Shown here: positions 32,809 to 35,757 of the stretch, in pieces
Numbering within the stretch: the stretch's first letter is position 1
Layout: every line of letters starts with the position of its first letter
NCBI RefSeq assembly: GCF_012027615.1
Contig: NZ_SNUT01000002.1
Span: 1-64,000 of the forward strand
From: Thermococcus sp. 21S7
GTDB taxonomy: Archaea > Methanobacteriota_B > Thermococci > Thermococcales > Thermococcaceae
Direction of reading: 5' to 3'
Length of the DNA stretch: 64,000 nt
Notes under the pieces: generated by a model
Databases searched by the model: none
What the model saw: only the letters and a program-made list of their open reading frames with translations
Told to the model about the DNA's origin: nothing
Position numbers and translations under genes: made by a program

Positions 32809-33201
32809 ATGGCTATATGGCAGGGAAGGTCACTCAAAAAGCCTTCAGGCGGAAGGATTATCCTCGCTAGAAAGAAGAGGAAGAGGGAGCTGGGAAGAGA
32901 GCCAGCTTTCACCAAGGTCGGTGAGGACAGGGAAAAGAAGAAGATAATCAGAACCTACGGTGGCAACAGGAAGGTTAGGCTCATCGAGGCCCTCTACGCC
33001 AACGTCTTCGAGAACGGCAAGGGCAAGAAGGTTAAGATAATCAGCGTCATTCAGAACCCGGCCAACAGGCAGTACGTCAGGAGGAACATCATCACCAAGG
33101 GCGCCATCATCGAGACCGAGGCAGGCAAGGCCATCGTCACCAGCAGGCCCGGTCAGGACGGCGTCGTCAACGCCGTTCTCATCAAGGAAGAGAGCGCCTG
33201 A
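32809..33201 (+). CDS. rps8e: Ribosomal protein S8e
   Basis: A 130-residue archaeal/eukaryotic small-subunit protein. It begins [15 protein letters not shown] and has [11 protein letters not shown] and the late [18 protein letters not shown] block. Length is normal for archaea. It is transcribed alone from its own promoter. The 3' side runs into the first of the two 72-base direct repeats. Confidence 0.96.
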
Positions 33202-33223: not shown

Positions 33224-33295
33224 TATCGTTAAGTACCGTTAACCCTGAGAACTTTACGCTACCGTTAACTTTCATGGCTTTGCAGTGGTTAACGA
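33224..33295. repeat. 72-base direct repeat, copy 1
   Basis: This segment matches 34588-34659 at 66 of 72 positions by eye. It contains four GTTAA-centred motifs (ATCGTTAAG, ACCGTTAAC, ACCGTTAAC and an inverted GGTTAACG). It overlaps the stop codon of the AlbA_2-type gene (33289-33291). Confidence 0.85.
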
Positions 33296-34584
33296 CGAAC
33301 TATCTCGTACCTTCTCTGGGCGCCCCTTCCGATGGCCTTCACGAGGCCAAGGGCTTCGAGCTTTTCAAGCCTCTTTAACACGGCAGGCTTCGAGAGGCCA
33401 ACGTACTCTGCTATCTCCCCGCTTCTCCTAGGGACGGCGAGAAACTCAAGGATTTTCCTATCAGTATCATCCAGAAGCTCGCCGGTTTTCTTCTTGAAGA
33501 CCACTTCAAAGCGGTTTGCGCTGCTCTTGAACTCCACCTCCACGAGGCCGTGCTTCCTGCATTCCTCGCGGATTAACCTCAACCCATAGCCGTACTTCTC
33601 GATGTAGCCCGCATCGTACATGAGTCCACAAAGGTTGGGGTTCCTCGGCACGTGTTCGGGGTCTTCGAGGTCCACTCCCGGCATCAGGCCCCCCGGATTT
33701 CTTATTACAATCCTATCGGGATGAATGAAAATCCTGACGTCCGCGGGGATTGCGTAGTTTCTGTGGGCGAAGGCGTTTATGATAGCCTCCCTAACGGCCC
33801 TTGTGGGATACTCGGGCAGTTTGGTTCTCTTTGTCCCCACCACCACTTCTATCGTGCTGAACTGGGAAAGAAGCTCCGCGTACATCTCATCTATAACCTT
33901 CCATACCGGCCCGTGGAACTCCCTGCTCCATACGGGTCTCTCCCCGTCCATTTTGACGATTCTGCCCCCTGCGTGCGGTATGAACTCGTCGACATCGGTG
34001 AAAAACAGGACCCCCGCGTTCGTTAGCTTGTCCCCCTTAATCGCCTTTGAACTCCTCAGGTAGCGGCTCCAGTCTTCCCGCGGGATACGCCTGCCCCTTG
34101 CCTTCTCCACCGCCGAGAAAAACCACTCAACGTATTCTTCCTTCATCTTCGTGAGCTCGGCCGCTGGAAACTCGTCCCAGGTAACCGCCCCCAGCTCGGA
34201 GGAGAGCATGAGAATCTCCTGGATTGAAAGGGGCCTTATTCCAGAGCCTATCCTGATGTAGGCGACTCCGCCGATGGAGCAGAGGTTCCGGGACTTTGGA
34301 ACCTCTACGACAAGAACGTTTCTGCCACCAATCTCAAGCACGTGGGTTTTTACCTGCAGAGGCGGGGTGACGCTCTGAAGTGAGGAGGATATCGTTTCCC
34401 TGGCCTTTTTGATGTCACATCCCAAAACATTGCCCTCGTCGCTTACGCCTATCAGAATGTAGCCACCGTCGGCGTTGGCCATGGCGCATATCTCTCTGGC
34501 GATTTCAGGCGTTGCCCTGCGTTTGAACTCTATCCTCTCGTTCTCCCCCTGACGGATGAGTGCCAGAAGTTCGTTCACATCCAT
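33289..34584 (-). CDS. AlbA_2/Schlafen-type ATP-binding transcriptional regulator
   Basis: A 431-residue three-domain protein. Residues about 10-125 form an AlbA_2 (divergent AAA_4) domain (ERIEFKRR, ANADGGYILIGVSDEG, AYIRIGSG). Residues about 250-370 form an HATPase_c_4 domain (REAIINAFAHRNY, IRNPGGLMPG, YGLRLI). The C-terminal 60 residues are a winged helix (SGEIAEYVGLSKPAVLKRLEKL). Such proteins are usually DNA-binding regulators. It is exceptional in having a 72-base direct repeat on each side: one covers its promoter, the other its stop codon. The ATG at 34584 has no strong ribosome-binding site. Confidence 0.88.
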   Translation of the reverse strand: MDVNELLALIRQGENERIEFKRRATPEIAREICAMANADGGYILIGVSDEGNVLGCDIKKARETISSSLQSVTPPLQVKTHVLEIGGRNVLVVEVPKSRNLCSIGGVAYIRIGSGIRPLSIQEILMLSSELGAVTWDEFPAAELTKMKEEYVEWFFSAVEKARGRRIPREDWSRYLRSSKAIKGDKLTNAGVLFFTDVDEFIPHAGGRIVKMDGERPVWSREFHGPVWKVIDEMYAELLSQFSTIEVVVGTKRTKLPEYPTRAVREAIINAFAHRNYAIPADVRIFIHPDRIVIRNPGGLMPGVDLEDPEHVPRNPNLCGLMYDAGYIEKYGYGLRLIREECRKHGLVEVEFKSSANRFEVVFKKKTGELLDDTDRKILEFLAVPRRSGEIAEYVGLSKPAVLKRLEKLEALGLVKAIGRGAQRRYEIVRR

Positions 34585-34587
34585 GAT

Positions 34588-34659
34588 TATCGTTAAGTAC
34601 CGTTAACCCTAAAAACTTTACGCTATCGTTAACTTTTCTGGCTTTACAGTGGTTAACGA
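34588..34659. repeat. 72-base direct repeat, copy 2 (promoter side)
   Basis: Near-identical to 33224-33295. It covers the region directly upstream of the AlbA_2 gene start, including an A+T-rich AAAGTTTTTAGG (minus strand, about 34608-34619) that could be its TATA box. The GTTAA motifs therefore surround the promoter. Confidence 0.85.
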
Positions 34660-34677
34660 AGATAAAAGAAGCGCGGG

Positions 34678-35757
34678 TCAGAGCTCAAGCTCTTCCCGGT
34701 ACTTCCTAAGCTCCCGCTCCATTATCTTTCTTGCCTGCTCCTCGACCATCGGTTTGACCATCTCGATGACGCGTCTCTTCAGCTCATCCAGGCCTTCGCC
34801 GTTGAGTGCAGAGATTCTGAGGGGTTCGAGACCTTTAGCCCTGACGAACTCCTCTACCCTTCTAATCTTCTCCTCGTCGGCTATGTCCACCTTATTGAGG
34901 ACCACGATGAATGGGAACTCTCCGAATTCGCTGTAAATTTCCTCGAACAGGTGTGTCTGCTCCTCTATCGGATAGCCGCAGTACTCGCTGGGGTCGAAGA
35001 TGTAGACGATGACCTTTCCGAGGTGCTTGAGCGCCAGGATGGCCTGTCTCTCCACCTCGTTCCTCTCGCTCAGCGGCCTGTCAAGAAGACCTGGAGTGTC
35101 TATGACTTGGTACTTAAGGTAGTGCTCCTCGAACTGGCCGACGTTTATGCCCTTGGTGGTGAATGGATAGCTCGCGACCTCGGGCTTCGCATTCGTTAGG
35201 GCCCTCAGAAGGGTGCTCTTCCCAACGTTGGGGTGGCCGGCTATCACTACGGTTGGAAGCTCAAGGTCAACGACCGGCAAATCTTTCAGCACGTTCCTCG
35301 CCCGGTTGAGGTACTCAAGGTCGTCGGCGATGTCCCTGAGAACGTCCGCAACGCGGCCGTAGAAGGCCCTTCTGAGCCGGGCTATCTCATCTGGGTCCCT
35401 GGAGTAGCGTATCTTTTCAACGTACCTCTGTTCCAGGTTCCTTATCGTTTTTATCGCCCAGTTGACCCTCGCGAGGGAGCGGTGAAACTGGTCCCTGTCA
35501 ACGAGCGTGTCAACCAGTTCCCTGTAGAACGCCGGCAACTCCGAAACGCCCGGCGTTCTGTCCAGGAGCTTTCTGAGGTTGTCCCTCACCACGTTTGAGA
35601 CCGTTCTTACGCGGAGCTCCTCCCGCTGCCTCGCCTTTGCCCTTGGGCCGCCCTTGGGGGTGAATGCCGATGCGGCTTTCTCGGCCCTCCGGAAGGCCTT
35701 ATCGATGAGCTCGTCAGCGGTAAGCACGGTCGGCATTTTTTCGAACGGATTCTTCAT
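34678..35757 (-). CDS. NOG1-type GTP-binding protein
   Basis: A 359-residue Obg-HflX superfamily GTPase. An N-terminal helical domain of about 160 residues precedes the G domain, with G1 GHPNVGKST (about 174-182), G3 DTPG, G4 NKVD and G5 SALNGEG. The C-terminal helix is charged. The domain order matches archaeal homologues of the eukaryotic ribosome-assembly GTPase NOG1, so a role in 50S maturation is likely. The ATG at 35757 follows GGAGGGGTGGAGAG. Confidence 0.93.
   Translation of the reverse strand: MKNPFEKMPTVLTADELIDKAFRRAEKAASAFTPKGGPRAKARQREELRVRTVSNVVRDNLRKLLDRTPGVSELPAFYRELVDTLVDRDQFHRSLARVNWAIKTIRNLEQRYVEKIRYSRDPDEIARLRRAFYGRVADVLRDIADDLEYLNRARNVLKDLPVVDLELPTVVIAGHPNVGKSTLLRALTNAKPEVASYPFTTKGINVGQFEEHYLKYQVIDTPGLLDRPLSERNEVERQAILALKHLGKVIVYIFDPSEYCGYPIEEQTHLFEEIYSEFGEFPFIVVLNKVDIADEEKIRRVEEFVRAKGLEPLRISALNGEGLDELKRRVIEMVKPMVEEQARKIMERELRKYREELEL

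Follow-up and report, generated by a model that had tools for sequence, protein, structure and literature searches.

The window analyzed here is a 64,000-nucleotide stretch of DNA from Thermococcus sp. 21S7 (contig NZ_SNUT01000002.1, positions 1 to 64,000). Between the convergent genes for ribosomal protein S8e (rps8e, plus strand) and a NOG1-type GTPase (minus strand) lies a single gene, which is enclosed by two direct copies, R3 and R5, of a 72-nucleotide repeat denoted R. The features of the locus are as follows.

32809..33201, plus strand: ribosomal protein S8e (rps8e), left flank, outside the cassette
33224..33298, minus strand: R3, the downstream, operator-like copy of the repeat, 66/72 identical to R5; its half-site cores start near 33227, 33237, 33253, 33263, 33279, and 33289, and it includes the stop codon of the gene
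33289..34584, minus strand: cassette gene, 431 amino acids, COG2865-like, SLFN_AlbA_2 plus HATPase_c_4 plus winged HTH
33337..33474, minus strand: winged helix-turn-helix (LrpA-type, Pfam), residues 371-416, candidate reader of R
33496..33741, minus strand: HATPase_c_4 domain, residues 282-363 (PF13749, E 1.5e-19)
34228..34545, minus strand: AlbA_2 (Schlafen-type) domain, residues 14-119 (PF04326, E 1.2e-22)
34588..34662, minus strand: R5, the upstream copy of the repeat, likely promoter-operator of the gene, with a geometry common to orthologs of several genera
34610..34615, minus strand: TATA-like TTTTTA read from the sequence, at the conserved position -31 to -26 from the ATG
34678..35757, minus strand: NOG1-type GTPase, right flank, outside the cassette

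The two copies (33224-33295 and 34588-34659) were found to be identical at 66 of 72 positions, exactly the figure given in the initial annotation, and the pair can be extended to 75 nt at 91% identity, with an E value of 1.8e-23 for the second copy. The repeat pair is real and far above chance. The same annotation had placed the copies over the stop codon and the promoter of one gene, and this holds: R3 includes the TAA stop codon of the minus-strand gene, and R5 lies 4 nt ahead of the ATG and contains the likely promoter. No further clear full-length copy was found in the same genome.

The encoded protein matches SLFN_AlbA_2, HATPase_c_4, and an AsnC/ArsR-type HTH in Pfam, all above the cut-offs. 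With the three domains in this order it belongs to the COG2865-like AlbA_2/HATPase/HTH proteins, a family that is already known though uncharacterized. The best structural match of the AlphaFold model (mean pLDDT of 88.5) is 3lmm (DIP2311), an uncharacterized protein with the same domain set that is also the best match in fold plus sequence to a solved chain; Schlafen cores were matched over a shorter stretch. Unlike the cassette, 3lmm comes without a described flanking-operator arrangement, and no description of such an arrangement was found in a limited literature search. In a comparison with the acidic catalytic triad of Schlafen-type nucleases that covered part of the triad, E14, E16, and E19 were found to be invariant in 19 homologs. 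PADLOC returned partial matches only, to pAgo-linked and CARF/Csa3 models. No transposase or recombinase domain was detected in the protein by Pfam or structure comparison, and no integrase domain was detected by Pfam in the cassette gene, the one gene covered by that search. The AlbA_2/HATPase part may serve regulation alone or have a role in conflict.

R is a quasi-palindrome in which six CGTWAA half-sites are arranged dyad-symmetrically about a TATA-like box. In the direction of the window gene, the half-sites are located at -74 and -64 (forward), -43 (reverse), -38 (forward), and -17 and -7 (reverse) from the ATG, and the TTTTTA lies between those at -38 and -17. These positions are identical in the type A, g3, g4, and g6 copies, which represent the window gene and three other genera, with one -64 half-site altered in G083. 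In the type C, D, G064, and G028b copies the distal triad is displaced by ~9-10 nt, roughly one turn of the helix, and the proximal triad (-38 or -37, -17, and -7) is kept at a Methanosarcinaceae locus (L217) and at two loci of the Methanomicrobiales type (L215 and L220). Every intact ortholog found in Thermococcaceae has R directly upstream of its start codon. Half-sites are thus laid over the gene's own promoter and conserved with the gene, as in autoregulated winged-helix repressors, and we infer from this arrangement that R5 is the promoter-operator of the cassette gene, read by the encoded HTH. Minus-strand BLAST matches suggested that the repeat is inverted in type B genomes, but R is quasi-palindromic and its profile scores both strands alike, so this reading was rejected. 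A fixed chromosomal site, such as an origin or a dif-like site, was also rejected since many genomes have no R and R travels together with the gene.

The NOG1 regions of 60 relatives were compared with the window. The R-gene-R arrangement occupies the rps8e/NOG1 gap in 12 genomes of the genus Thermococcus, and three versions of the gene, ~72% alike, are found at this one site: type A (G000, G049, G022, G004, G011, and G002), type B (G035, G038, and G043), and type C (G020, G018, and G030). The gene of G043 is broken into two frames with stops, and G061, from another genus, has a frameshifted gene copy between two R. The empty site with a single repeat that had been envisaged in the initial annotation exists: 14 Thermococcus genomes have a single R without the gene beside NOG1 (G059, G028, G032, G042, G025, G041, G036, G047, G055, G054, G052, G007, G013, and G044). 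This R is damaged in G025 and G041; the contigs of G052 and G054 are short, and rps8e was not found on them. In the type-a single repeats (e.g., G042), the outer flank of R3 is on the left and that of R5 is on the right, as recombination between R3 and R5 would be expected to leave them. The remaining genomes compared have no R, and the insertion point is undefinable from them because their gap sequence is not readily alignable. An integron-like cassette array was found at the site in none of the 60 relatives.

The same gap holds other genes. A gene for a ~300-residue membrane/zinc-ribbon-like protein is present there, in either orientation, in many relatives (G006, G009, G039, G027, G029, G014, G017, G026, G015, and G076), and a gene resembling a PIN/VapC toxin is present in G021 and G013. 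The rps8e/NOG1 gap has the look of an accessory-gene hotspot. Beside NOG1 in G001 (L103) there is a degraded C-terminal remnant of a related gene (residues 337-425, ~42% amino acid identity) without a recognizable R.

Across the family, a profile search with R gave matches in 44 of 94 genomes, usually in one or two places each. The gene is found at other loci, with a single upstream R and 65-77% amino acid identity, in G064, G065, G067, G070, G071, G083, G084, and G093. R3 was not found in the other Thermococcaceae genera that have the gene at other loci, and R3 is therefore dispensable for persistence of the gene. R without an intact gene was found in G073, G075 (with an N-terminal remnant), G082 (with a C-terminal remnant), G081, and G068, as well as at second sites of G061, G059, G020, and G056. 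There is one gene copy per genome and not the multiple dispersed copies of a transposon or insertion sequence. Comparison of G069, a g3 genome without the gene, with the g3 locus gave one neighbor at 62%. The picture that the initial annotation had set against a cassette, an ancestral gene without repeats and without copies elsewhere, is not what these genomes present.

Two further observations were made at these loci. R or the cassette gene often adjoins genes for archaeal AAA-type ATPases, recognized by eye in the ORFs from RRVGKT/RQVGKT motifs, in G041 (L100), G038/G043 (L131/L127), G064 (L195), G071 (L184), the second site of G020 (L192), and G083 (L183). At the second locus of G028 (L198, 4952-4999), a weak R-like array (E 0.057) lies behind a diverged gene copy, and its half-sites are of the CTTAACG type, like those of that copy's own upstream operator.

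Orthologs in other archaea (36-59% amino acid identity) have their own flanking direct repeats of the same half-site kind. The identities were determined to be 80% over 110 nt (L217), 94% over 70 nt (L218), 87.5% over 80 nt (L225), 88% over 76 nt (L227), 80% over 75 nt (L228), and, for the Methanomicrobiales-type L313, 85% over 78 nt; L315, of the same type, also has flanking repeats. The repeat sequences vary between lineages and agree within each cassette, and many Methanomicrobiales-type orthologs have the upstream array only. Flanking repeats were found for 19 of 79 family genes versus 8 of 145 control genes. In place of such repeats, a duplicated stretch from the 3' end of a neighboring gene brackets the R-gene unit at L213 and L223, and the same kind of duplication was found at L238, a distant bacterial homolog. 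The duplicated neighbor 3' ends are located as follows.

L213: 3748-3850 and 5324-5426
L223: 3746-3817 and 5300-5370
L238: 2924-2978 and 4407-4461
L258: 3835-3950 and 5401-5516

These duplications around AlbA_2-family genes are of a kind that an integration might produce, but as evidence of target duplication they are suggestive only, given the flanking repeats of 8 of the 145 control genes. Carriage by viruses or plasmids was considered and rejected: a scan of viral contigs gave no relatives, there was no match to the R core pattern, and the relatives on plasmids and phages are distant, at 24-32% identity among the matches listed.

The downstream copy was examined by comparing divergence in the half-site cores with that in the spacers. 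For R3 versus R5 within a genome, the core and spacer divergences were determined to be 0.014 and 0.079 for type A, 0.065 and 0.211 for type B, and 0.149 and 0.344 for type C, with p ~0.002 for each type, values that are optimistic since tests on related sequences are pseudoreplicated. Among the R3 copies of type A genomes, the cores differ by 0.037 and the spacers by 0.109. The intact type-a single repeats have no detectable constraint (cores 0.102, spacers 0.120). The type-b single repeats have kept their half-sites without the gene (cores 0.081, spacers 0.331), perhaps because the gene was lost recently or because something else reads R. R3 and R5 also share type-specific sequence, including a central insert in types C and D, and over the whole repeat they are 89-96% identical within type A genomes. 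As judged from this conservation, R3 is more than debris.

Gene types A, B, and C each form a strongly supported clade with the hosts interspersed. By these trees the histories of the gene versions disagree with those of their hosts, where the host tree is that of NOG1/S8e, which comes itself from the exchanged region and has modest support. The AU test did not reject monophyly of all gene types at the rps8e site (p 0.08 and 0.14) and gives no grounds to claim that they arrived there independently. The divergence at four-fold sites in the gene versus NOG1 was determined to be 0.16 versus 0.48 for G000-G022, 0.17 versus 0.53 for G000-G004, 0.09 versus 0.36 for G049-G022, and 0.15 versus 0.45 for G020-G018; in several pairs the gene has accumulated about one-third of the synonymous divergence of NOG1, which is ~100 nt away. 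The difference is no general rate effect, since it is absent from pairs such as G022-G002 (0.27 versus 0.26), and it is reversed for G038-G043 (0.41 versus 0.20).

Along the locus, divergence shifts at or near the repeats, and the cassette has therefore been exchanged largely as a unit. G020 and G018 show 3-7% divergence in the gene, 16% on the R3 side, and 7-18% in NOG1. Between G038 and G043 the differences are 4% in rps8e, 30% in the gap with R3, 12-20% in the gene, and 0% just past R5; the flanks are alike, the gene and the R3 side have been swapped, and the last differences on the right lie within R5. The G000 gene is itself a mosaic within type A, with its 3' sixth more diverged than the remainder.

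We consider it probable that the locus is a horizontally exchanged, self-regulated one-gene cassette, the twin operators of which double as recombination ends. Several units of a winged-helix protein, most likely the cassette's own product, would bind the six half-sites of R, thereby masking the TATA-like box and repressing the gene. Between rps8e and NOG1, the gene is directly followed by a second R, and because the two copies are direct repeats, recombination between them would delete the gene and leave a single R. Incoming cassettes would recombine at R, the presumed crossover site, or at short flanks, and gene versions would be swapped between species as units. Host homologous recombination, the likely machinery for both loss and exchange, would suffice to explain them. 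Homology in the flanking rps8e and NOG1 genes could also move cassettes without any role for R.

It is rather unlikely that the arrangement is purely regulatory, with twin operators for DNA looping or tight autorepression, single repeats that are deletion scars, and exchange that is incidental through the flanking housekeeping genes. The better conservation of half-sites than of spacers in R3, the dyad-symmetric multi-site operator over the promoter, and the recurrence of downstream operator copies in unrelated lineages all agree with regulation, but binding alone leaves unexplained why, within a genome, R3 and R5 resemble each other in their spacers too, as in the type A repeats above. Two further points against it are that exchange ends at or close to the repeats and that many orthologs have no R3. 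That the pair arose by chance as a local duplication of no broader significance is scarcely credible: direct repeats of this size can come from slippage or duplication, yet the relatives already contradict this origin, since at this site the pair occurs with three gene types and in two genera, and it recurs, with other sequence, around orthologs elsewhere.

The suggestion in the initial annotation of a regulatory or mobile cassette, or a product of recombination, gains from the exchange boundaries and from the R upstream of orthologs, but autonomous mobility does not share in this. A self-mobilizing one-gene element, in which the encoded protein or a helper recombinase acting in trans would use R as an attachment site and produce a 1.36-kb R-gene circle plus a single R, would account for the occurrence of both R-gene-R and a lone R at one site, for several loci per family with a patchy distribution, and for the duplicated neighbor 3' ends around the R-gene unit (L213 and L223) and the distant homolog (L238). 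We nevertheless regard it as improbable. Since there is no recombinase or transposase domain, each genome has a single gene copy, and a scan of viral contigs gave no relatives and plasmid and phage records only distant ones, autonomous mobility is a minority view, and homologous recombination suffices. Equally doubtful is the broader proposal of a minimal mobile unit widespread in archaea, whose product would both repress from and synapse or recombine at its own end-duplicated operator, so that the switch is the attachment site.

The self-regulated, exchanged cassette resembles several known systems in part. Repressors of the Lrp/AsnC and ArsR type are negatively autoregulated winged-helix proteins with multi-site operators; the C-terminal HTH and the half-site arrays over the promoter are similar here, but the cassette differs in its six dyad-arranged half-sites and in having another complete operator downstream of the gene. 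Solo long terminal repeats are remnants of recombination between direct repeats, much like the single R found where other genomes have R-gene-R, but the cassette has no retroelement genes and R is a predicted 72-nt promoter-operator. In integrons and tycheposons, as here, single genes pass between genomes as cassettes at sites bounded by repeats, but no integrase or tyrosine recombinase was identified in the cassette gene and there is no cassette array at the locus.

A repeat pair that was otherwise unexplained thus gains a likely function, and single genes are found to be swapped between species without their neighbors. With the predicted operator as a guide, members of a large family of uncharacterized archaeal Schlafen-like regulators can be located and tested. 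Because genetic tools work in Thermococcus, direct tests of the main claims are feasible. If recombination also takes place at the operator, a single 72-base sequence would couple regulation to horizontal transfer.
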